Shown here: piece by piece, positions 44,636 to 56,016 of the stretch | Numbering within the stretch: position 1 is the stretch's first letter | Layout of the letters: the number at the start of each line of letters is the position of its first letter | Assembly: GCA_016201065.1 (NCBI GenBank) | Contig: JACQDL010000006.1 | Span: forward strand, 1 to 64,000 | Source: Actinomycetota bacterium | GTDB lineage: Bacteria; Actinomycetota; Actinomycetes; Mycobacteriales; JACQDL01 | Direction of reading: 5' to 3' | Length of the DNA stretch: 64,000 bases | Program-made: the position numbers and the translations under genes | Notes under the pieces: generated by a model | What the model saw: the letters and a program-made list of their open reading frames with translations, nothing else | Databases searched by the model: none | Told to the model about the DNA's origin: nothing

Positions 44636-47353
44636 TTAGTGGCAGCTCGCCGAGCCGGAGTCGGTGCCGCCGCCGGCGTTGACCGGAACGAAGTTCCAGC
44701 CATAGCCGCCATCCGAGAGGGTCATCCGGAGCACCCCGAAGGTGTTCGGGATGCGGGCGACGCTGTTGGCCGATGCGGTGGCCCGGATCGAGAAGAAGCT
44801 CTTTCCACCGCTGCCGACGATGAGCTCCGAGATGCCCTTGGTCGGGTCGGCGTTGCCCGCGGCGTCCTGCGGTCCGAACCGCTCGTAGAAGTGCGCGTGC
44901 GCGCTGAGCACCACATCGGCACCCTTGGTGTAGAGCAGCTGGTAGATGGACTGCATGTCGGGCTGGTGGTCCTGGCTGCTGGAGAACAGGGGGATGTGCC
45001 AGTAGGCCAGCACGCACCGCTTCGTGGTCGCGTTCAGGTCGGCCAGCAGCCACTGGTACTGCGGGTTGCCCGGGTTGCAGCCGCCGACCACGCCGCACTG
45101 GCTGTCCAGCGCGATCATGTGCCAGCTCCCGATGTCCCAGCTGTACCAGGAGGTGCACTGGCTGGTGCAGCCCGGCTGCAGCGGGTGCGAGCGGTCACCG
45201 AAGTAGCTGAAGTAGCCCGCCCCCCCGGTGGGTTGGATCGCCGTACCGATGTAGCCGTACTCGTGGTTGCCCGGGATCGGGCGGGAGATCTGGCTCAGCC
45301 GGCCCCAGGACGGGTCGTACACGGCCTGGAAGGCGCTCAGCGCCCCGAGGTCGTACTGGTTGTCGCCGAGCGGTAGCACGGCGTCCGGGTGGAGCGACAG
45401 CGCCACCTCGCTGGTGGCGACCTGGGCGCAGCTCGTCGAGGTTGGGGTGCTGCCCGCGGTGCAGGCGATGTCGCCGGTGGCGACGATCGTCGGGTCGGTG
45501 TTGGTCAGCGTGAACGCCGCGGTCTGCGTCGTGCTGCCGGTCGTGGCGGTCACCGGGTAGCTGCCGGCGGCGGGGCCAGCGGTGAACGGCGGGCTGACGG
45601 CCACGCCTACCGCGTCCGTGCTGACCGTGATCGTGCCGGCGCCGCCGGGGAAGCTCCCGGTCGGGCCGGTGGCGGGTGCGGCGAAGGTGACCGCGGCTCC
45701 GCTGACCGGGACGCCGTTCGACGTGGTGACCGTGGCGGCCAGCGGCGCGGCGAAGGTCGTTCCGGCCAGCGCCGACTGGCCGCTGCCGCCGGTCGCCGCG
45801 ATCCCACCGCCCGGCGGCTCCGTCGGGGTCGGGGTCGGGGTGGTCGAGGGAGTCGGGGTGGTCGAGGCGGTCGGGGTGGTCGAGGGAGTCGGGGTCGGGG
45901 ACGGCGTCGCGGTCGTCGTCGTGATCACCAAGGTGGGTGGCGTGGCGGCGGACTCCCGGGCCGCGAACTTGTTGTTCCCGGTCCGGGTCGTGGTCACCGC
46001 GAGCTCGACCGTGCCGCTTCCGGTCACCGCCGGGGTCACGTCGATGGATGCCCACGTGTTCACCACGATGTTCGGGCCCTTCCCGACGACCGCGCCGATC
46101 GGCGGCGCCGTGGTGAAGGTGAGCCCGCTCTCGGTCCAGGCACCCGGCGCGGCGGAGACCACCAGCCCGAGGCTGGATGTGGCATAGGTGTAGACCTGGA
46201 GCGTGGCCGAGCTCACGGTCCCGGACAGCCCGGTGACCGGGAACCGCAGGTAGCTGTTGATCGTCGGCGTGCTTGCCGAACCCGCCTCGCTGCCAAGCAC
46301 GTAGTCGGCACCGAAGTTGGAGTCCGGCAGGTCGGAACGCACCGACGCGTCCGCGGCCACCTTGACGGAGTACGTCGTGGTCGTCGGGGTCGGGGTGGCG
46401 GTGGCGGTGGGAGCCGAACCGTTGGTGAGCCCGAACCCGGCCGACCCGGCCGACCCGGAGGCGGTCGCCGTCACCTGGTAGGAGCCAGCCACGGCGTTGG
46501 CGGTGAGCGCTGGCGACTGGGCCACGCCTGCGGCGTCGGTGTTCACCGTCGCCGCGCCCGAGCCGCCCGAGCCGCCCGCGAAGGTCGCCGAGGCACCGCT
46601 GCTCGGTGCGGTGAAGGTCACCGGCGTGTTCGGCACCGGGGCGCCGGACCCGTCGGTGACGGTCGCGCTGAGCGGCGCCGCGAACGCGGTCCCGACCGGC
46701 GCGGCCTGCCCCGACCCGGAGGTCGCGGCCACCGCACCCGGTGCCGCCTCGGTGATCACCAAGCGGGGTGGCGTCGCGACCACCTCCCGGCTGGCCAGCT
46801 TCTTGCTCAACGTCGAGGTGGTCGTCAGCACCAGCGTGTACGTGCCGTTGCCGGTGACCGCGCTGCTGACATCCGCGGCGGCCCAGCTGCCGACGGCGAT
46901 GTTCGGGAGGTTCGCCACCATCGTCGAGCCGACCGCGGGGGCGGTGTTCCAGGTGATCCCGGACTCCGTCCAGGTGCTGGGTGCGGTGAAGACCTGCACG
47001 CCCGTCGACGACGACGCGTAGCTGTAGAGCTGGAGCTGCACGCTCGACGGCGCCCCGCTCAGCCCGCTCACCGTGAACTTGAGATAGCTGACGGCGGCCG
47101 CCTTGAGCGCCGACGCGGCCCGGGCGGCCAGCTCGGTCGCCGCGCCGTAGTTCGTGTCCGGCGCGTCGCCCTGCACGTACGCGTCGGCCGAGGCCGTGAC
47201 GGTGATCGGTGCCGCCGCCAGGCTCGGGTTGACCGCACGGACCGCGGCCCAGGTGCCGGGCAGCAACGCGGCGGTCACGAGCACCGCCCCCGTGCGGGCG
47301 ATCCGGGTCCGCGCCGGTCGCGAACGGCCTGCGGCGGATGAGGTGATGGTCAT
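44636..47353 (-). CDS. Modular secreted metallophosphoesterase with DNRLRE domains
   Basis: A 905-residue exported protein. After a signal peptide (about 10-48) come a DNRLRE module (ASADAYVQGDAPDTNYG), an Ig-like module (SATVTDGSGAPVPNTPVTFT), a Thr/Pro linker, a second DNRLRE module (ADASVRSDLPDSNFGADY), a Thr/Pro/Ser linker from a DNA repeat and a second Ig-like module (AATVTTSNGVPVSGAAVTFA). The C-terminal third is a calcineurin-like phosphoesterase with GDIACT, GDNQYD, PGNHEYG, YWHIPLF and SAHAHFYER, the full metal-ligand set. The duplication DNRLRE-Ig is clear. ATG 47353 follows GGAGGGG. It lies 64 bases after the polysaccharide operon on the same strand and may be its last gene; the substrate is unknown. 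Confidence 0.87.
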   Translation of the reverse strand: MTITSSAAGRSRPARTRIARTGAVLVTAALLPGTWAAVRAVNPSLAAAPITVTASADAYVQGDAPDTNYGAATELAARAASALKAAAVSYLKFTVSGLSGAPSSVQLQLYSYASSSTGVQVFTAPSTWTESGITWNTAPAVGSTMVANLPNIAVGSWAAADVSSAVTGNGTYTLVLTTTSTLSKKLASREVVATPPRLVITEAAPGAVAATSGSGQAAPVGTAFAAPLSATVTDGSGAPVPNTPVTFTAPSSGASATFAGGSGGSGAATVNTDAAGVAQSPALTANAVAGSYQVTATASGSAGSAGFGLTNGSAPTATATPTPTTTTYSVKVAADASVRSDLPDSNFGADYVLGSEAGSASTPTINSYLRFPVTGLSGTVSSATLQVYTYATSSLGLVVSAAPGAWTESGLTFTTAPPIGAVVGKGPNIVVNTWASIDVTPAVTGSGTVELAVTTTRTGNNKFAARESAATPPTLVITTTTATPSPTPTPSTTPTASTTPTPSTTPTPTPTEPPGGGIAATGGSGQSALAGTTFAAPLAATVTTSNGVPVSGAAVTFAAPATGPTGSFPGGAGTITVSTDAVGVAVSPPFTAGPAAGSYPVTATTGSTTQTAAFTLTNTDPTIVATGDIACTAGSTPTSTSCAQVATSEVALSLHPDAVLPLGDNQYDLGALSAFQAVYDPSWGRLSQISRPIPGNHEYGYIGTAIQPTGGAGYFSYFGDRSHPLQPGCTSQCTSWYSWDIGSWHMIALDSQCGVVGGCNPGNPQYQWLLADLNATTKRCVLAYWHIPLFSSSQDHQPDMQSIYQLLYTKGADVVLSAHAHFYERFGPQDAAGNADPTKGISELIVGSGGKSFFSIRATASANSVARIPNTFGVLRMTLSDGGYGWNFVPVNAGGGTDSGSASCH

Positions 47354-47417
47354 CGGCCCCTCCACGATGTCGAGCGTGCGATGGCAGCTCGCCGGCGTTC
47401 CGGCGAACTCTTCACGG

Positions 47418-47996
47418 TCAGTCGTCCTCGATCAGCCCGGCCGTGCCGCAGGATCGCAGCGCCGGGTCCCGCCACTGCCAGGCCAACGCGGCCCGCAGGT
47501 CGGCATGCCCACGCCGGGGGCTGAGGTAGGCGCCCTCGACCCGGATCGGGACCGAAGTGTCCGCCGTGACCGTGCGGGGGGCGCCCATCGCCGACCGCCA
47601 CCGGGTGCCGCCCACGGTGAGGTCCACCGCGCGGACGGTGATCGGCATGGTGGTCCCGTTTGTGATCACGCCACGCAGGGTGATCCGGTAGCTGCCGGCG
47701 GCGAACATGGTGCCGCCGGCCAGCGGGGGTTCGAAGACCGCGTCGGTGAGGTGCACCGCCGGCACGGCGCCGCGCGGGCAGACGATCGTCCGGCCCGCCG
47801 GCCCGGCCACCCGGATGGGTGGCGGCTCGGTGGCCGCGGCCAGCCGGGGCGGTTCGGTGTGACCGGCGTGGACATCGGGCCCGACCGGACCGGCACCGGA
47901 ACCGGACCCGAGGGTCGCGCCGGCACCCGTGGCGAGCACGGCCACCGCACCAAGGGTGATCCAGAACCGCGACCCTGGGACGCTGCGCAGGTTCAT
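47418..47996 (-). CDS. Exported protein of unknown function, beta-rich
   Basis: A 192-residue protein with an N-terminal signal or anchor (FWITLGAVAVLATGAGATLG), a short His/Pro-rich stretch, then a beta-rich domain (FEPPLAGGTMFAAGSYRITL, ITNGTTMPITVRAVDLTVGG). Two cysteines (in TIVCPRG and RSCGTAG) could form a disulfide. I do not recognise a family. ATG 47996 overlaps the hydrolase stop (ATGA) and has GGGAGG upstream. It is the fifth gene of the operon and may hold or modify the exported polymer, by inference from position only. Confidence 0.7.
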   Translation of the reverse strand: MNLRSVPGSRFWITLGAVAVLATGAGATLGSGSGAGPVGPDVHAGHTEPPRLAAATEPPPIRVAGPAGRTIVCPRGAVPAVHLTDAVFEPPLAGGTMFAAGSYRITLRGVITNGTTMPITVRAVDLTVGGTRWRSAMGAPRTVTADTSVPIRVEGAYLSPRRGHADLRAALAWQWRDPALRSCGTAGLIEDD

Positions 47997-49288
47997 GCTG
48001 GTCGACCTCCCGTCCCGGCCAGGGCGGACATCCGGTGGCACGCCGGCGGAGGGGCGAGCTCGGCCGCCCGCAGTGCTTCGGCGTAGCTGGCGGCGTAGTG
48101 CCCGCTGCCGTCGGCGTCGAAGTAGGCGTGCGCGTCGTAGCGCACCAGCCCAGCCGGGTCCTGGATCCACGCGCGCGGATGCATGCTTCCCCACCTCGCG
48201 GGCGAGGTGGAGCCGTACCCCGCCACCAACACCAGACCCGCGCCGCCGGCCTGCCGGATCGCGGTGACGGCCTGCTGGGAGGCCCGCTCCCACAGCCGGG
48301 CGCCAGCCATGCCCCGCTCCGCGAGGGTGACCGGCTCGTTCAGCAGGCCGTAGCCGATGACGGCCGGAAGACCCGCCACGGCCGGCACCGTCCGCCGCCA
48401 GAAGTCCGCCAGCGCACCGGTCGGGAGCCCGGCCGAGCCCAGCAGGAGCCGCCTGGCCTGACCGGCTCCGGGGCCCGGCCCGGCGGCGAACGCACCGTAG
48501 CCGTGCAGATCGACGATCACCCGTAGGCCGGCCCGGCCGGCATGGTCGAGGGCCCGGCGCAACGTGCTGACCGCGGTCGCGTCCAGCGGCCCGCCCGGAA
48601 CCGGCTGCAGCCGCTCCCAGGCCACCGCCATCCGGACCAGCCGCACCCCCCGCCGGGCCAGGTACTGGTAGCTGGCCGGCGACTCGTAGCTGTAGTCGTA
48701 GCCGTAGCGGCCGGGGCGCAGGCTGCCGAACGCCGGGTTCGTGTCGGCGGCCCCGAACGAACCGCCCGCGAGCACCACGCCACGCAGGTACCCGCGGGTG
48801 CTCCCGTGCGCCTCCACGATCCCGGCCTGCGGCCCCCGGCTGTCCAGCTCGGTGGAGCCGGTCCCGGCCCGGTAGACGGACATCGGGTAGCTCGCCGGCC
48901 ACCGGGCCGCCGACCAGGCGGTGACCGGCAGCCCCAACGTGTCGGCGGCCGAGTACCAGGTGTCGGCCAGCGCGTTCCATCGCTGCGCGTCCGGTCCCGA
49001 CGGCCAGCCGACCTCGCCGACGTACCCGGCCGAGTGGTTGGCCGACAGCCACTGCGCGAAGTGCGCCAACCCGTCCACCGCGGCCGCCTGCAACGCGTCC
49101 GCCCCGCAGATCTCCCGGGACCCCCGGTCCAGGGACTGCGGGAGCAGTACACCCGCGGTCACGGCGACGCCGAGCACGATCGCGACGGCTCCGCGCCGAC
49201 CCCAGCGCGCCGACCGGGCCGCCACCATCGGCCGCGGCCCGCGAGCCGTACCCGCGTCCGCGCTGGGTGGCGCCGAGGAGAGCGTCAT
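47993..49288 (-). CDS. GH5-like cellulase-family glycoside hydrolase, possibly inactive
   Basis: A 431-residue protein with a membrane anchor or signal at about 35-52 (GAVAIVLGVAVTAGVLLPQS) and a TIM-barrel resembling family 5 glycosidases. The acid/base glutamate lies in GYGLLNEPVTL, and DAHAYFDADGSGHY gives the conserved His/Tyr strand. In GH5 enzymes the nucleophile glutamate follows some 30-60 residues later in a motif such as GEFG; here only about 40 residues remain and no such motif is seen. It may be inactive, or use another residue. The start ATG 49288 is the best of several. It follows the GT39 gene by 16 bases and couples to the next by ATGA. Confidence 0.75.
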   Translation of the reverse strand: MTLSSAPPSADAGTARGPRPMVAARSARWGRRGAVAIVLGVAVTAGVLLPQSLDRGSREICGADALQAAAVDGLAHFAQWLSANHSAGYVGEVGWPSGPDAQRWNALADTWYSAADTLGLPVTAWSAARWPASYPMSVYRAGTGSTELDSRGPQAGIVEAHGSTRGYLRGVVLAGGSFGAADTNPAFGSLRPGRYGYDYSYESPASYQYLARRGVRLVRMAVAWERLQPVPGGPLDATAVSTLRRALDHAGRAGLRVIVDLHGYGAFAAGPGPGAGQARRLLLGSAGLPTGALADFWRRTVPAVAGLPAVIGYGLLNEPVTLAERGMAGARLWERASQQAVTAIRQAGGAGLVLVAGYGSTSPARWGSMHPRAWIQDPAGLVRYDAHAYFDADGSGHYAASYAEALRAAELAPPPACHRMSALAGTGGRPA

Positions 49289-49304
49289 CGCCGCAGCACC
49301 CCCC

Positions 49305-51083
49305 TCACCGCGCCGTCCGCCGCGCACCGGCTGGCTGGCTCGCCGGATGCGCGCGGGTCGCCGGAAGCGCGCGGGTCGCCGGAAGCGCGCGGGTCTCCGG
49401 ACGTACCTCGCGGACGGTGATCGTGTCCAGCCCGACGCCGAACCGGGCCACCGGCACCGAGTGCCGCAACGCCTGGCCGAGAGTGGGGAACATCCGCAGG
49501 GTGTCCGCGGAGGGGCGGCCGTCGGCCTGCACGTGGGAGGCGAGGTCGTCCTGCTGGTCCAGCACGACGTAGCTGATGCCGGTCCAGCTCGGCGAACCGG
49601 GAATCTTCACGTCACGGTCCACGTCGAGCTTGGTGAACCAGATCACCCGGTCGGCCGGGTGGCCGGCCCGTACCAGGTCCACCCAGAGCGAGTCATCGAC
49701 GACGACGTACGCCGAGTTCGGCACCCGGTCCCGGACCCAGGCCAGCGCCTGGGCCTTGCCCGCGTCGCGGTTCACCTCGCGGAGGTCCCGCAGCGGGATC
49801 GACCAGGCATGGCCGACGGCGAGCAGCAGCCAGCCGCAGAGCCCGGCGACCGCGACCTGCCAGGCTCGCCGGCGCGCGGTGGCGGGCCGGCGGGCGCCGG
49901 TGGGCCGCGCCTCTCCCCACCGCCACAGGTGGTCCGCCACGCCGCCGATGGTCAGCGCGGCGAACGGGATCATCGCGATCACATACGGATACGGCAGGTA
50001 CCCGGACCGCAGCAGCAGCACCACCTGGATCGCGAACGCCAGCGCCACCGCCCGGGTCCGCCGCACCAGCAGGCCGGGCACGACGAGCAGCAGGGCCAGC
50101 TGGGGCAACCACGGATCCTGGGCCAGCCAGCTGTGGATCACCGCGCTTGCCGTGCTCGCCGGGTCGAAGATGCTGCCGCTGCCGGTGCGCTCGAACAGCT
50201 GCCAGCGCACCGCCCACTCAAGGCTCACGTGATCCGGACCGACGAGCAGCTCGTTCTTGATCAACGCGTACAGCGGGAAGGCGGCGCACAGCAGGATGAA
50301 CCACGCGGCGAAGAGCGCCGTGGTGAACCGGCGGTTGCGCCGGTCCGCCCGCTGCCACAGCAGCACCACGACGGCCGGCAGGTAGAGCAGCGCGGTCTCC
50401 TTGGTGAGCACCGCGACGGCCAGGCACCCGGCGCTGGCGACCGCGGCGCCGATGCTGCGCCGCGGCGAGGCGGCCAGGAGGAACGCGGCGACCAGCCACG
50501 GCGTGACGACGTTGTCCAGCAACGCGGCCCGGGTGAAGTAGACCGCCAGCGGGCTGAACACGAAGACGGTCACCCCGAGCACCGACCCCGGCCGGCCGAG
50601 GCCGAGGCGCCGGCCGAGCGCGTACAGCAGCGGGATCGTCACCAGCTTGCAGACGAGCATGAACTCCCGGGCCGCGCCGACCGCGTACGGCGCCCGATCG
50701 AACCCGTCGGTCAGCCACGTCCACAGCGAGATCTGCAGCCACCCCAGCGGCGGATGCGCATACCAGTACGTGTAGTGCCCGAGGGTGTGCCAGTTCGCGA
50801 CCGCCCAGGCATAGGCGGTATAGGTGCCCTCGTCGTCGAAGCGGGCCGGCGAGGTGTACATCCCGGCCGCGTGCACCAGGCCACCGGCCAGCAGCAGGAC
50901 CGCGACCAGCACCAGGTCGATCCGGTGGCGGCGGGCCCGCCGGGCCAACGCCGGTGCGACCCGATGCCGGAGCCGGGGACCGGCGGCGACCACGCCGTCG
51001 AGGGAGATGTCCAGGGGCGGCAGGGGCTGCTCGGGGCTGCGTGGCTCCGGCAGCCGCGGGCCGGGTCGGGTCGAGGCGGTCAT
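49305..51083 (-). CDS. Membrane glycosyltransferase, GT39-like
   Basis: A 592-residue polytopic protein with about ten to twelve hydrophobic segments and the GT-C signature in the first external loop: SPARFDDEGTYTAYAWAVAN, containing the Asp-Asp-Glu catalytic group. YWYAHPPLGWLQ and DNVVTPWLVAAFLL are further family features. Such enzymes use polyprenol-phosphate-linked sugars at the outer membrane face. The tail RALPATRALPATRAHPAS is from an 18-bp repeat. ATG 51083 overlaps the previous gene's stop (ATGA). Within this operon it could decorate the polymer with the sugar supplied by the first gene's transferase domain. Confidence 0.87.
   Translation of the reverse strand: MTASTRPGPRLPEPRSPEQPLPPLDISLDGVVAAGPRLRHRVAPALARRARRHRIDLVLVAVLLLAGGLVHAAGMYTSPARFDDEGTYTAYAWAVANWHTLGHYTYWYAHPPLGWLQISLWTWLTDGFDRAPYAVGAAREFMLVCKLVTIPLLYALGRRLGLGRPGSVLGVTVFVFSPLAVYFTRAALLDNVVTPWLVAAFLLAASPRRSIGAAVASAGCLAVAVLTKETALLYLPAVVVLLWQRADRRNRRFTTALFAAWFILLCAAFPLYALIKNELLVGPDHVSLEWAVRWQLFERTGSGSIFDPASTASAVIHSWLAQDPWLPQLALLLVVPGLLVRRTRAVALAFAIQVVLLLRSGYLPYPYVIAMIPFAALTIGGVADHLWRWGEARPTGARRPATARRRAWQVAVAGLCGWLLLAVGHAWSIPLRDLREVNRDAGKAQALAWVRDRVPNSAYVVVDDSLWVDLVRAGHPADRVIWFTKLDVDRDVKIPGSPSWTGISYVVLDQQDDLASHVQADGRPSADTLRMFPTLGQALRHSVPVARFGVGLDTITVREVRPETRALPATRALPATRAHPASQPAGARRTAR
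49340..49393. repeat. 18-bp tandem repeat x3 at the GT39 3' end
   Basis: Three copies of TCGCCGGAAGCGCGCGGG (first copy one base different) plus a partial copy. The period keeps the frame and gives the repeated RALPAT tail. Confidence 0.9.
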
Positions 51084-52351
51084 CGGGCGCTACCCACGGA
51101 CACGCCGACGTCGCCGCGGTGCGCACCGACGTGCATGGTCTTCTCCCAGCCGCCCTCGCCGCGCAGCTCCCGCCACACCGCCCGGACCGCCGCAGCGGAC
51201 AGCACGAGCTGGTAGGGCACCGCCCCAACGACCAACTTGGCGTAGTCCCGGAGCCGGGCGTCGAGGCCGAACATCCGGTCGAACTCGGCCAGCCCGACGA
51301 CCTCCATGACCAGCGTGGCGACCGTCGGCACCAGCGGGACGAACGTCGCGAGCACGAACAGCACAGGCGCCTTGACCACGATCATCGTGACCAGCGACAG
51401 CGGCAGCAGCACACCGGCGAGGGCCTGCACGAACGGCATGGCCAGCAGGTAACGGGCCATCATCCGCCGGCCGAGGGTCGGCAGCCGCCGCCACTCCCCC
51501 TTGCGCAGCACCTGCAGGTAGCCCTGGTTCCACCGGCTGCGCTGGCGGACCAGGCCGCCCAGCGTCGGCGGGGTCTCCTCGCGGGTGGCCAGCTGCGGGC
51601 TGTACGCCACGGCGACCTTGGCGCCGGCCACCGACAGCCGGATGCCCAGCTCACAGTCCTCGGCCAGGCACGCCACGTCCCAGCCGCCGACCATCTTCAG
51701 CAGGTCGGTCCGGACGAAGACGGTGTTCCCGCCCAGCGGGATGAAGCCGTTGCGGGCGTGGAAGTGCAGCCGGGAGGCGAACCAGAAGAAGTACTCCAGC
51801 GTGTTGCGCAGCGCCCACCAGCTCGACCGGTAGTTCATCAGCTGCACGCCGCCCTGGACCACGTGGGCGCGGGTCGTCCGGAAGCAGGTGTCCACGTGCC
51901 GGAGCAGGTCCGTGGCGACCTCGTCCTCGGCGTCGAAGACGCCGACGATCTGCCCGGTGCACTCCGGCAGCGCCCGGTTGAGCGCGCGCGGCTTGTTCTT
52001 CGGCTCGCTGTCGTCGACGACGACCCGCACCCGGGGGTGTTCGGCGGCCAGCCGGTGCGCCACCTCGGCGGTGCCGGGGTCGTCGTGCCCGACGATCACC
52101 AGCACCTCCAGCCACGGATGGTCCTGCTGGAGCAGCCGGTGGACGGTCTGCGGCAGGACCGCCTCCTCGTGCCGGGCCGGCACGAGGAGGGAGAAGGTCA
52201 GCTGCGGCGCATCCGCGACCGGGAACGGCATCTGGCCGCGGGCCCGGGGGGTCCGCCACGAGTCGACCATCCACGCCAGGGTGCTCACGGCGACACCGAA
52301 GAGCACCAGGGTGGCGACCAGGTAGCCGGCCATCAGGACGGCCGAGATCAC
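51080..52351 (-). CDS. Processive family 2 glycosyltransferase (polysaccharide synthase-like)
   Basis: A 423-residue membrane GT2 enzyme. One N-terminal helix (SAVLMAGYLVATLVLFGVAV) precedes the catalytic domain with SLLVPARHEEAVL, VDDSEPKNKPRALN, the metal-binding FDAEDEVATD, GFIPLGGNTVFVR, the acid ED in CLAEDCEL, and QRSRWNQGYLQ. The QxxRW motif marks processive synthases such as cellulose and hyaluronan synthase. Three further helices lie at about 310-400. It very likely builds and exports a beta-linked polymer. GTG 52351 follows GGGGTGG and overlaps the previous stop (GTGA). Confidence 0.9.
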   Translation of the reverse strand: MISAVLMAGYLVATLVLFGVAVSTLAWMVDSWRTPRARGQMPFPVADAPQLTFSLLVPARHEEAVLPQTVHRLLQQDHPWLEVLVIVGHDDPGTAEVAHRLAAEHPRVRVVVDDSEPKNKPRALNRALPECTGQIVGVFDAEDEVATDLLRHVDTCFRTTRAHVVQGGVQLMNYRSSWWALRNTLEYFFWFASRLHFHARNGFIPLGGNTVFVRTDLLKMVGGWDVACLAEDCELGIRLSVAGAKVAVAYSPQLATREETPPTLGGLVRQRSRWNQGYLQVLRKGEWRRLPTLGRRMMARYLLAMPFVQALAGVLLPLSLVTMIVVKAPVLFVLATFVPLVPTVATLVMEVVGLAEFDRMFGLDARLRDYAKLVVGAVPYQLVLSAAAVRAVWRELRGEGGWEKTMHVGAHRGDVGVSVGSAR

Positions 52352-54987
52352 GCGGCACCACCCCGCGCGGGCACGGCAACACCACGGGTGGACGCCACGC
52401 CACCCCGCACGGACGCGGCGCCGTCCCACTGCGGCCAGCGGTCGTCGGCGTCGGCCGGTGGCCGCACGGCGGGCACGCGGTGCGCCGAGCCGCCGGCGGC
52501 GCCGGTGGCGCCGGCCGCTGCGGGCCCGGAGCCGGCGAGGAGCCGCGGGATCTCATCCGCCCAGCCGTAGCAGTCCGAGGCGAGGACCCTGGTCCGGATG
52601 CCGGACAGGAAGCCGCCGAGGATCTCCTCCTCCCGGCGCCGCAACGCCGCGTAGTCCTGGCCGTGCAGGGCGATCGCCGGGGCGAGGTAGCGGAACGGCG
52701 GGAAGCCGTAGGCGTCGTCGGTGTTGGCCAGCATCCGGCTGACCGTGCTGGCGTGGTCGACGTCCCGCAGCGCGGGGGCGCCCCGCTCGATGATGAAGAG
52801 CTCCTGCACCCGGGTGGTGGACCCGAACTGGCACGGCACCAGCCGGTCCACGGTGTACTTCGGCGGTGGCACCAGAATCTGGGTCAGCGCGTTGATACCC
52901 ATGATCGGAAGGTTGAACCGGCTGAGGGTGAGCGCGATCGACCGGCCACCCTTGGAGTGCAGCCGGCTCTGCAGCTGCAGCCGTCGCCACTCCCGGCTGG
53001 TCAGGTCGTCGGCCCGGACCGCGCGCAGGGTGTGCGCGCTGATGGTCAGCGGCTTCGGGAAGCACACCGCGTTCCCGGCGGCGTCGACCACGGTCATGTC
53101 ATCGGAGAGGAAGCGGCCGCCGTGCTCGCGCAGCAGCCGCAGCACGGTCGCGGTCTTGCCGGTGTCGGTCAGCGCCGAGAGCATCACGCCGACGCCGTCG
53201 AGGCTGACACACGCCGAGTGCAGCAGCATCCGGTCCCGGTCGATGAGCACGAAGCGGAGCAGGGCCTCGATGATGTTGGTGTAGACCACGTGCGGCGACC
53301 TCGCCAACAGCGGCCCGACCTCGACCGTGATCGGGTCGCCGAGGTCCACCCGGAAGTTCGCCCCGAGCCGCCCCAGGTGTTCCTCGTACCGCAAGGTCGG
53401 CGCGGGCTGGCCGTCCCGGTCCGGTACGCCGCCGTTGAGCTGCTCGGTCATCTCCGCGCGCCGCCGGGGCCGGCGCGAACCCACGTCGCCGACCCGCACC
53501 GCGATGTCGACCTGCCGGTCGGAGACCCACTGCGCGCGGAAGAACTCCAGCTCCGGCAGCCTGATCTGGGACCCGATGCTCACCACACCGGCCACGTCGT
53601 ACCGGTAGGGCAGGTGCCGCGAACGCCGCCGCTGCGGGGCGGCCGGGGCCGCCGTGGGTGCGAGGTCAACGAGCACCCGGACCGGATCGCGACCCGGGCC
53701 GTCGCCGGTGGGCCCGTAGATCACCCGGTCGGCCACCAGGAACCGGACCAGGAAGAGCGCCATGAGCGTGGCCGCGTTGGCCACCAGCAGGTCGACGCCG
53801 GAGGAGAGCAGCGCCTGCAGCACCGGCAGCCGGGCGAGCAGCAGCAGGTTGTTCATCGCCACGAACCGGACCGCCCGGCCGCGCCGCCGGCCCTGCCCGC
53901 GGCCCCGGTAGACCACGGCCTCGACGAGCACGAAGTTCCACAGCGTCGAGGCCTGGGTGGCGAGCGCGGCGGCGGCCAGATGGTGCATCCCGGCCATCGA
54001 GTGCAGCAACCACAGGGCGAACGTGTTGACCGCGACTCCGGAGAGCCCGACCAGGCCGAAGGCGAGCATCCTGGCGAGCTGGCGGACCCGGTCGGTCGTC
54101 CCGGACGGGCCACGCCGAAGCTGGCGGACCAGCAGCTGGTGGCGCAGCCGGCCGAGGTGCCGGACGAACCGGCCACCTTCCCGCAGCGACGCCTTGGACC
54201 TCCCGGCCTGCCGGGGTCCGAACTGGTAGGCCACCTCGGCGACCCGCACCCGCGGATGCCGGACCAGGATCTCCAGCAGGATCTTGAACCCCAACGGGTC
54301 CAGCAGCTCCAGGTCGATCGCCGACCGGCGGAACGCGAAGAGACCGCTCATCGGATCGGTGACCGTGGCCAGCCGCCTGGGGAACACCGCCCTCGCCAGC
54401 CGGGTGGCTCCCGAGGAGGTGGCCAGCCGACCTGAGCCGGCGAGCCCGCCAGCTGAGCCGCCGCCCGCCCGTCGGGTCCCGATGACCACGTCGACCTCGT
54501 GCCGGATGGCCCGTCTCGCCAGCGCGGCCGCCGCCTCCGGCGGGTGCTGTAGGTCGGCGTCCATGACCAGGACCCACTCGCCCCGCGCGTGGCGGGCCGC
54601 CGCCACCACCGCGCCGCCCAGACCTCCCCGCCGGGTCCCGGGGTGTCGGCGGATCAGCCGCACGGGCACCGGACAGCCGACGGCCTGCCGGCTGATCACC
54701 TCCGGTGTCTCGTCGTCGCTGTCGTCGACGAAGATGATCTCGGCGCCCAGTGGTGCGAACGCGGGTCCGAGCAGCTCCAGCAGCAGCGGGACGGTCTCGG
54801 CCTCCTGCCGTGTGGGTACCACGACCGAGAGCCGGACCGGGCCGCGCTGGGTTCCTTCGTTCACCGTCTCGATCGCATCCGGCTCGTGACCGGCGGCCGG
54901 CCACGGCATGCGAGGTTCGGGCGTCGACACGGCCACCGAACCGGATCCGATCCGGTCCAGTGGGCGCGCGTCGGCAATTTCGGTCAT
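52348..54987 (-). CDS. GT2 - GtrA - HPr-kinase-like three-domain fusion
   Basis: An 879-residue protein with three parts. Residues about 52-290 are a DPM1-like GT2 transferase: SVVVPTRQEAETVPLLLELL, FVDDSDDETPE, the metal-binding DAD at 143-145, and DPMSGLFAFRRS. Residues about 303-425 are a GtrA-type domain with four membrane helices. Residues about 460-830 form a soluble domain with a P-loop SALTDTGKTATVLRLL (Lys611), a following FLSDDMTVVD, and KPLTIS, as in HPr kinase/PEPCK-like kinases. The first two parts together make and flip a polyprenol-phosphate sugar; the third could sense or phosphorylate a partner. ATG 54987 is chosen; GGGGGGG lies six bases upstream. It is first in the operon. 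Confidence 0.88.
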   Translation of the reverse strand: MTEIADARPLDRIGSGSVAVSTPEPRMPWPAAGHEPDAIETVNEGTQRGPVRLSVVVPTRQEAETVPLLLELLGPAFAPLGAEIIFVDDSDDETPEVISRQAVGCPVPVRLIRRHPGTRRGGLGGAVVAAARHARGEWVLVMDADLQHPPEAAAALARRAIRHEVDVVIGTRRAGGGSAGGLAGSGRLATSSGATRLARAVFPRRLATVTDPMSGLFAFRRSAIDLELLDPLGFKILLEILVRHPRVRVAEVAYQFGPRQAGRSKASLREGGRFVRHLGRLRHQLLVRQLRRGPSGTTDRVRQLARMLAFGLVGLSGVAVNTFALWLLHSMAGMHHLAAAALATQASTLWNFVLVEAVVYRGRGQGRRRGRAVRFVAMNNLLLLARLPVLQALLSSGVDLLVANAATLMALFLVRFLVADRVIYGPTGDGPGRDPVRVLVDLAPTAAPAAPQRRRSRHLPYRYDVAGVVSIGSQIRLPELEFFRAQWVSDRQVDIAVRVGDVGSRRPRRRAEMTEQLNGGVPDRDGQPAPTLRYEEHLGRLGANFRVDLGDPITVEVGPLLARSPHVVYTNIIEALLRFVLIDRDRMLLHSACVSLDGVGVMLSALTDTGKTATVLRLLREHGGRFLSDDMTVVDAAGNAVCFPKPLTISAHTLRAVRADDLTSREWRRLQLQSRLHSKGGRSIALTLSRFNLPIMGINALTQILVPPPKYTVDRLVPCQFGSTTRVQELFIIERGAPALRDVDHASTVSRMLANTDDAYGFPPFRYLAPAIALHGQDYAALRRREEEILGGFLSGIRTRVLASDCYGWADEIPRLLAGSGPAAAGATGAAGGSAHRVPAVRPPADADDRWPQWDGAASVRGGVASTRGVAVPARGGAA

Positions 54988-55587: not shown

Positions 55588-56016
55588 ATGTCTCCCGCAT
55601 CCTCCCGCGATCCGAGAGCGAGCCAGGTCGTCCGCGTCGAAACGCTCCTCGCCGCGGTGCAGGACATGGTGTCGTCCCTCCGCACGGTCAGCGACCAGCT
55701 CAGCAGGGAGATCTGCGTGCTGACCGAACAGTCCGGCACCGAGGTCGGCGCGACGCGCACCGACCTCGAGGTGCTGCGGACCGAGAACTCCCACCTCAAG
55801 GAGGCGCTGCAGGGCCGTTCGATCATCGAACGGGCCAAGGGCATGCTCATGGCCAAATATGGCTGCGCCGAGGAGGCCGCCTTCCAGATGCTGGTCTCGG
55901 TGTCCCGCGAGGAACGGCGCAAGGTGCGCGACGTTGCCGCCGACATGGCCACCATGATCCCGACCGCCCGCACCGGTGAGGGTGCCGCCGACCGTCCGGG
56001 TCAACGCGCCCGTTGA
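55588..56016 (+). CDS. ANTAR-domain antitermination regulator
   Basis: A 142-residue RNA-binding regulator. Residues about 10-75 form an amphipathic coiled-coil region (TLLAAVQDMVSSLRTVSDQL, EVLRTENSHLKEALQ), followed by the ANTAR domain, with IIERAKGMLMAKYGCAEEAAF and REERRKVRDVAADMA. ANTAR proteins bind pairs of RNA hairpins with six-base loops and release terminators. There is no GAF, PAS or receiver domain, so the signal probably comes through a partner. ATG 55588 has no ribosome binding site, but a CATAAT box ends six bases before it, so the message may be leaderless. The stop codon lies inside a 19-bp stem. Confidence 0.85.
   Translation: MSPASSRDPRASQVVRVETLLAAVQDMVSSLRTVSDQLSREICVLTEQSGTEVGATRTDLEVLRTENSHLKEALQGRSIIERAKGMLMAKYGCAEEAAFQMLVSVSREERRKVRDVAADMATMIPTARTGEGAADRPGQRAR

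Follow-up and report, generated by a model that had tools for sequence, protein, structure and literature searches.

Why should a membrane enzyme that very probably makes a mannolipid carry a domain resembling HPr kinase? The question is raised by a gene in a 64,000-nucleotide stretch of an Actinomycetota genome (GenBank assembly GCA_016201065.1, contig JACQDL010000006.1, positions 1 to 64,000; hereafter the window), where a single uninterrupted frame on the reverse strand (52348–54987; ATG at 54987, TGA at 52350–52348) encodes a fusion protein of 879 aa. According to Pfam, NCBIfam, hhalign and Foldseek, and in agreement with a first-pass annotation made from the bare sequence, this protein joins a family 2 glycosyltransferase (GT2) domain of the GT-A fold, a GtrA-type membrane domain and a C-terminal domain like those of HPr kinase and phosphoenolpyruvate carboxykinase (PEPCK). 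The parts are ordinary; judged from sequence, the recurrent combination appears to be new, the predicted kinase step included. Recurrent fusions in two phyla point to an uncharacterised kinase step in the attachment of sugars at the outer surface of the cell. A sequencing error, a frame error joining two genes or a chance fusion can be excluded, because the same fusion in the same order is found in about 40 independent loci from isolates and metagenome-assembled genomes (MAGs).

The probable synthase part

The GT2 domain (54319–54828, reverse strand, as are all features of the fusion gene) scores 80 bits with Pfam Glycos_transf_2 (PF00535, cut-off 23.3) and carries the motif DADLQHPPE, and the membrane domain (53719–54060) scores 54 bits with GtrA_DPMS_TM (PF04138, cut-off 26.1), so that both domains lie above their Pfam cut-offs in one chain. 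Hydrophobic segments of the GtrA part are found at residues 307–325, 376–394 and 400–418. When the 403 aa of the GT2-GtrA part were submitted to phmmer, residues 11–383 aligned, membrane domain included, to the dolichyl-phosphate-mannose synthase of Pyrococcus furiosus (PfDPMS, PDB 5mlz) with E=1.6e-43. Equivalents of PfDPMS Glu12, Asp39, Asp89/Asp91/Gln93/His94, Arg117, Ser135, Phe177-Lys178, Arg202 and Lys208 are kept in this alignment, and Arg131 is offset by one position. The roles of these residues in binding GDP-mannose and lipid phosphate are known from the structure of PfDPMS, in which His94, the histidine of DADLQH, contacts mannose, Arg117 and Ser135 bind the lipid phosphate, and Arg202 and Lys208 lie in the A-loop (PMC5526996).

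From these observations, the GT2-GtrA part is very probably a polyprenyl-phosphate-mannose synthase, one of those with a GtrA-like membrane domain in the same chain. A union of GT2 with GtrA is thus no novelty, as the first-pass annotation had noted and PfDPMS confirms. The annotation's description of a DPM1-type GT2 with GtrA was right as to the domains, and DPMS of the P. furiosus type is the more fitting name for the two together. The difference from PfDPMS lies at the C terminus: PfDPMS ends after its membrane domain, whereas the window protein adds about 390 residues with a P-loop kinase-like domain. A search of the window's genome with query P0001 found no other DPMS-like GT2 within a threshold of E<=1e-3, and the fusion may be the sole DPMS-like enzyme of this genome; several relatives have four to six such matches.

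Family and fold of the kinase-like domain

The third domain (residues 446–845, about 390 aa; 52453–53652) is related to HPr kinases at low profile scores. With the window protein, Pfam Hpr_kinase_C stays below its own cut-off (E=1.4e-3), and the NCBIfam matches to HprK_rel_B, HprK_rel_A and HPr(Ser) kinase are all weak: 24–26 bits for the HprK-related kinases A and B (TIGR04352, TIGR04355) against a cut-off of 200 bits, and 21 bits for HPr(Ser) kinase/phosphatase (TIGR00679) against a curated cut-off of 240 bits. Matches of the same weak kind occur throughout the 36 aligned homologues (HprK_rel_A in 36/36, HPr(Ser) kinase in 35/36, Hpr_kinase_C in 33/36). When the domain family was compared by hhalign with the HprK-related proteins collected in this analysis, the match reached Prob 98 and E=3e-14; with ATP-PEPCK it gave Prob 22 and E=9e-4. 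A sequence profile search of the domain against the PDB found nothing real. The AlphaFold2 model of the domain (pLDDT 88, pTM 0.86) was submitted to Foldseek, which placed ATP-PEPCKs at the top of its list (TM to the query up to 0.47, E about 2e-6, probability 1.0), aligned over about the whole domain, and returned HPrK/P entries at E about 2e-3, also with probability 1.0. The profile searches and structure prediction that the first-pass annotation had proposed thus agree with its assignment, and its own counter-hypothesis, that the C-terminal part has no P-loop kinase fold, is refuted.

Both motifs that had been read from the sequence, SALTDTGKT and FLSDDM, are present as a Walker A P-loop, A605-LTDT-GKT612 (53152–53175), and as an acidic, metal-binding or catalytic, motif S628-D629-D630 followed by methionine (53098–53106); a P-loop and an acidic DD motif are what is expected of an HPrK fold. 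In 62/62 homologues, H590, A605, G610, K611, T612, D629, D630 and K645 are invariant, as are R675, H677, S678, G681, R682, K710, D758 and Y760. Long invariant runs in the alignment of 36 are SPHV.YTN, LLHSA, A.TDTGKT, F.SDD, PKP.T.S.HT, QSR.HSK.GR, PPPKY and NTDDAYGFPP. On this evidence we regard the domain as a distinct branch of the HPrK/PEPCK superfamily that looks catalytically intact by its motifs. Placed as it is after the GtrA helices, it would be expected in the cytosol, provided that the protein is oriented in the membrane as PfDPMS is.

The domain shares with HPr(Ser) kinase/phosphatase and the HprK-related kinases A and B the P-loop, the preceding histidine, the DD motif, a PKP-like strand, and the profile and fold matches. 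It differs from them in scoring at about one tenth of their cut-offs, in being fused to a membrane protein, and in having a particular segment, around QSRLHSKGGR/VPPPKY, that the relatives aligned by hhalign either lack or show in another form. With ATP-PEPCK, the P-loop and the following lysine strand align, whereas identity is only 8–12%. We reject PEPCK proper, as there is no PF01293 match to the domain or in the genome and the hhalign Prob is 22. We likewise reject HPr kinase proper, given scores far under the cut-off and a genome, 97.8% complete and with control families detected, in which no PF00381 (HPr) match was found. As far as an assembly of this completeness allows, HPr is ruled out as the substrate in the window's genome. 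The first-pass annotation had suggested that the domain couples polyprenol-sugar supply to a phosphorylation or nucleotide signal; coupling to phosphorylation is plausible, and the failure to find an HPr in the genome speaks against coupling through a signal of the classical HPr kind, which is unlikely.

Two further observations concern relatives of the domain. The window's genome encodes three more HprK-related proteins without membrane domains (L095, L097, L098; contig 35:19435–19971 and contig 34:2723–3807, two of them adjacent). In a Chloroflexota genome (L071:2703–5297, forward strand), a paralogue of the kinase domain stands beside an intact set of the genes described below; it has diverged, has lost the P-loop and the DD motif, carries a long C-terminal extension, and is possibly a pseudo-kinase partner.

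Fusion architectures and the surrounding genes

A scan of GTDB genomes yielded 50 loci with the kinase-like domain, in Streptomycetaceae, Micromonosporaceae, Streptosporangiaceae, Jatrophihabitans, MAGs of Pseudonocardiales and Frankiales, Thermoleophilia and Chloroflexota. The full domain is sparse in evenly drawn samples (2/396 genomes of the window's phylum and 13/301 of the Chloroflexota reference), where weaker matches are ordinary HprK-related proteins. Four architectures were observed. GT2, GtrA and kinase are separate genes in L085–L089 and L093; a GT2 gene accompanies a GtrA-kinase fusion in L056–L059, L072 and L094; and in L060, L063, L065 and L070 this fusion extends into a protein O-mannosyltransferase (PMT) of the GT-C type. 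The same label for L038 came from stop-to-stop frames and is doubtful. The full GT2-GtrA-kinase fusion is found in most Actinomycetota and in L091/L092. The order of the domains is collinear between separate genes and fusions in both Chloroflexota and Actinomycetota, as in Rosetta-stone fusions. The tree requires eight architecture changes, a rough figure because the tree is a quick one with several long branches and some contigs are truncated. That the kinase domain is fused, depending on the lineage, to synthase, GtrA or GT-C is strong evidence for either a direct biochemical step or a tight control that is missing from current models. Streptacidiphilus sp. 4-A2 has a locus (L067:6159–8906) at which the kinase gene and those that follow it seem split over several frames, probably through assembly errors or in a decayed copy.

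We also observed a recurrent order of genes downstream: a PMT_2 GT-C, a PF04185 phosphoesterase and a GH99-like glycoside hydrolase, with CBM96 proteins and calcineurin-like phosphoesterases nearby. When only loci with 6 kb or more of downstream sequence are counted, 47 in all, a PMT-type GT-C is present in 42 (41 by the cassette PMT profile, plus the divergent type of the window), with PMT_2 above its cut-off in relatives, so that GT-A, GtrA and GT-C are encoded together; PF04185 is found in 39/47 and a GH99-like gene in 32/47, and 45/47 encode a phosphoesterase of one kind or the other, PF04185 or metallophosphoesterase, or both. The closest solved relatives are AcpA acid phosphatase for the phosphoesterase, Pmt4 for the PMT and endo-alpha-mannosidase for the GH99-like protein, the latter two giving the cassette a mannose theme. 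The genome survey that had been proposed thus found the fusion to recur, not as an isolated protein but as one state of a GT2-GtrA-kinase-PMT-phosphoesterase-GH99 cassette in two phyla.

Because the loci had been chosen by their kinase domain, a reciprocal search was run from the PMT side. With the PMT of L028 as query and a threshold of E<=1e-30, 15/299 genomes of the window's order gave a match, and the kinase domain was nearby in 15/15, directly upstream or one gene away in 14. The fifteenth (G871, contig 39, L134) is rearranged: PMT, PF04185 and GH99 run in one direction and the GT2-GtrA-kinase fusion follows at a distance of about 6 kb, encoded on the opposite strand of the same contig, and we therefore reject it as a cassette without a kinase. 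One further, distant PMT paralogue (L133) has no kinase domain nearby. Within the window's order, the link between kinase and PMT is two-way.

In the window, the fusion gene, with a G-rich stretch directly upstream of its ATG, is the first gene of what looks like an operon spanning 55.0 to 44.6 kb, as judged by successive start/stop overlaps: the GTG start of the next gene overlaps the TGA of the fusion gene, and further overlaps lie at 51083/51080 and 49327/49305. All on the reverse strand, the genes encode a second GT2, a PgaC/CelA-like membrane glycosyltransferase (51080–52351; PF13641, 157 bits); a multispanning GT-C-like transferase with a DDE motif, a divergent relative of PMT and ArnT (49305–51083; PF02366 at only E=0.011); a GH5 glycoside hydrolase (47993–49327; PF00150, 71 bits); a small protein with an N-terminal hydrophobic segment (47418–47996; 192 aa if the start, taken from the frame, is MNLRS); and an exported protein with CBM96/DNRLRE repeats and a calcineurin-like phosphoesterase domain (44636–47365; PF24517, 178 bits; PF00149, 28 bits). 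The same set, unlike the usual cassette, follows the fusion in Peterkaempfera griseoplana (L022), where the second GT2 is 77% identical, the GT-C-like gene 68% in the same position, the small exported-looking protein 41% in the same place and the CBM96-phosphoesterase protein 69%, and where GH5 is also present; the P. griseoplana counterpart of the GT-C-like gene also scores with the cassette PMT profile. The window's fusion may serve a related but different product, since a search of the window's genome with the cassette PMT (L028) gave no strong match and one with PF02366 found a single PMT, on contig 31. Beside the start of the operon, a divergently transcribed frame (55588–56016, forward strand) encodes a 142-aa protein that by eye resembles an ANTAR-type RNA-binding regulator and could regulate the operon.

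A possible kinase step in extracellular glycosylation

From the sequences, we lean towards the view that a membrane DPMS-type synthase and a cytosolic HprK-type kinase domain together carry out the first steps of a dedicated extracellular glycosylation cassette. Polyprenyl-phosphate-mannose would be the donor, the GT-C would transfer outside the cell, and the kinase domain would phosphorylate something cytosolic. The GT2 would move mannose from GDP-mannose to polyprenyl phosphate at the inner leaflet, a step well supported by its residues, and GtrA would anchor the protein and may help to flip the lipid-linked sugar. The HprK-like domain, as its fold and motif conservation suggest, would use a nucleotide triphosphate to phosphorylate a hydroxyl specific to the cassette; that this belongs to the lipid-linked sugar or polyprenol, rather than to HPr, we propose tentatively, at somewhat less than even expectation. 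By family, the PMT-type GT-C would pass the sugar to an exported acceptor, and exported phosphoesterases and hydrolases (PF04185 or metallophosphoesterase; GH99 or GH5) would process the product or free the phosphate. In the window these last two steps would fall to the variant set of second GT2, divergent PMT, GH5 and CBM96-phosphoesterase. A fuller version, in which phosphorylation of the lipid-linked sugar or polyprenol precedes PMT transfer and an exported phosphoesterase removes the phosphate again, making a four-component system with a 'tag' cycle, is speculative, and we would not expect it to hold in full.

Several points weigh against this scheme. Its every step rests on sequence and model rather than on biochemistry; the TM-scores to PEPCK are just 0.37–0.47 in the best Foldseek matches, and the kinase-family profile scores lie far under their curated cut-offs. 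At two loci, L040 and L043, the fusion is not accompanied by the cassette. For the window itself the cassette reading leans on relatives, because no PF04185 or GH99 gene is present there and the GT-C gene matches PMT only weakly. Kinases of the HPrK fold, moreover, are known to us with protein or peptide substrates (HPr, lasso peptides), and the fold more widely with PEP, but none with a sugar or lipid.

The last point bears on the rival that the domain is a serine kinase, perhaps also a phosphatase, acting on a cassette protein or another cytosolic protein so as to match the supply of polyprenyl-phosphate-mannose to energy or sugar status. Family precedent favours such regulation, because a protein serine is the target of the canonical HPrK and lasso-peptide kinases of the same kind phosphorylate peptides; in profile comparisons the domain comes nearest to HPr(Ser) kinase and the HprK-related kinases, and fusion to the synthase would put the kinase at its target. 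We nevertheless think it unlikely, though a serious competitor: the genome yields no HPr, and regulation alone would leave the near-constant exported phosphoesterase unexplained, which is why a phosphorylated intermediate is favoured over pure regulation. If the domain instead phosphorylated free polyprenol, supplying the GT2 with its lipid acceptor much as dolichol kinase feeds DPMS, its cytosolic side would fit, as would its position fused to or next to a polyprenyl-phosphate-consuming enzyme in every architecture. We know of no polyprenol kinase with an HPrK/PEPCK-type fold, and the known three-component systems are described without a dedicated kinase (PMC8035078), which makes this proposal improbable. 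A domain that has lost catalysis and serves as nucleotide sensor or scaffold only would account for the unusual Walker A (ALTDTGKT against GxSGxGKS/T) and has a parallel in the diverged paralogue of L071; the strict conservation of the P-loop, H590, the DD motif and further charged residues across two phyla is not expected of a dead domain, and we give this account very little weight.

The scheme of a synthase joined to a kinase step would place the HprK-related kinases, whose annotation is loose, in a definite pathway that is open to experiment, in hosts that include tractable Streptomyces and Micromonospora. Sets of GT-A, GtrA and GT-C for extracytoplasmic glycosylation are widespread, and to our knowledge no kinase belongs to them. 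In the open-licence literature we found no description of an HPr kinase joined to GtrA or to a glycosyltransferase. The gsf cluster of A. missouriensis (PMC13390465) was considered as a prior description and rejected, being a different GtrA cluster whose published annotation has no kinase-like domain, and UshA/UpsH (PMC11898649), which had suggested that the phosphoesterases might release the lipid carrier, act in the cytoplasm and serve here only as background. In the actinobacterial Ppm1/Pmt system of protein O-mannosylation (PMC5882110), a polyprenyl-phosphate-mannose synthase likewise feeds a PMT-type transferase, whereas here the synthase bears GtrA and kinase domains and belongs to a separate cassette with phosphoesterase and GH99 or GH5. 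The nearest known system is three-component transmembrane glycosylation of the CsbB-GtcA-YfhO type, the review of which mentions neither a kinase nor a fusion in its text (PMC8035078): there, as here, a GT-A for the lipid-linked sugar, a GtrA-type membrane protein and a GT-C are encoded together, and here a fourth element is added, an HprK-like domain fused to these proteins or encoded between them, along with genes for an exported phosphoesterase and a hydrolase.

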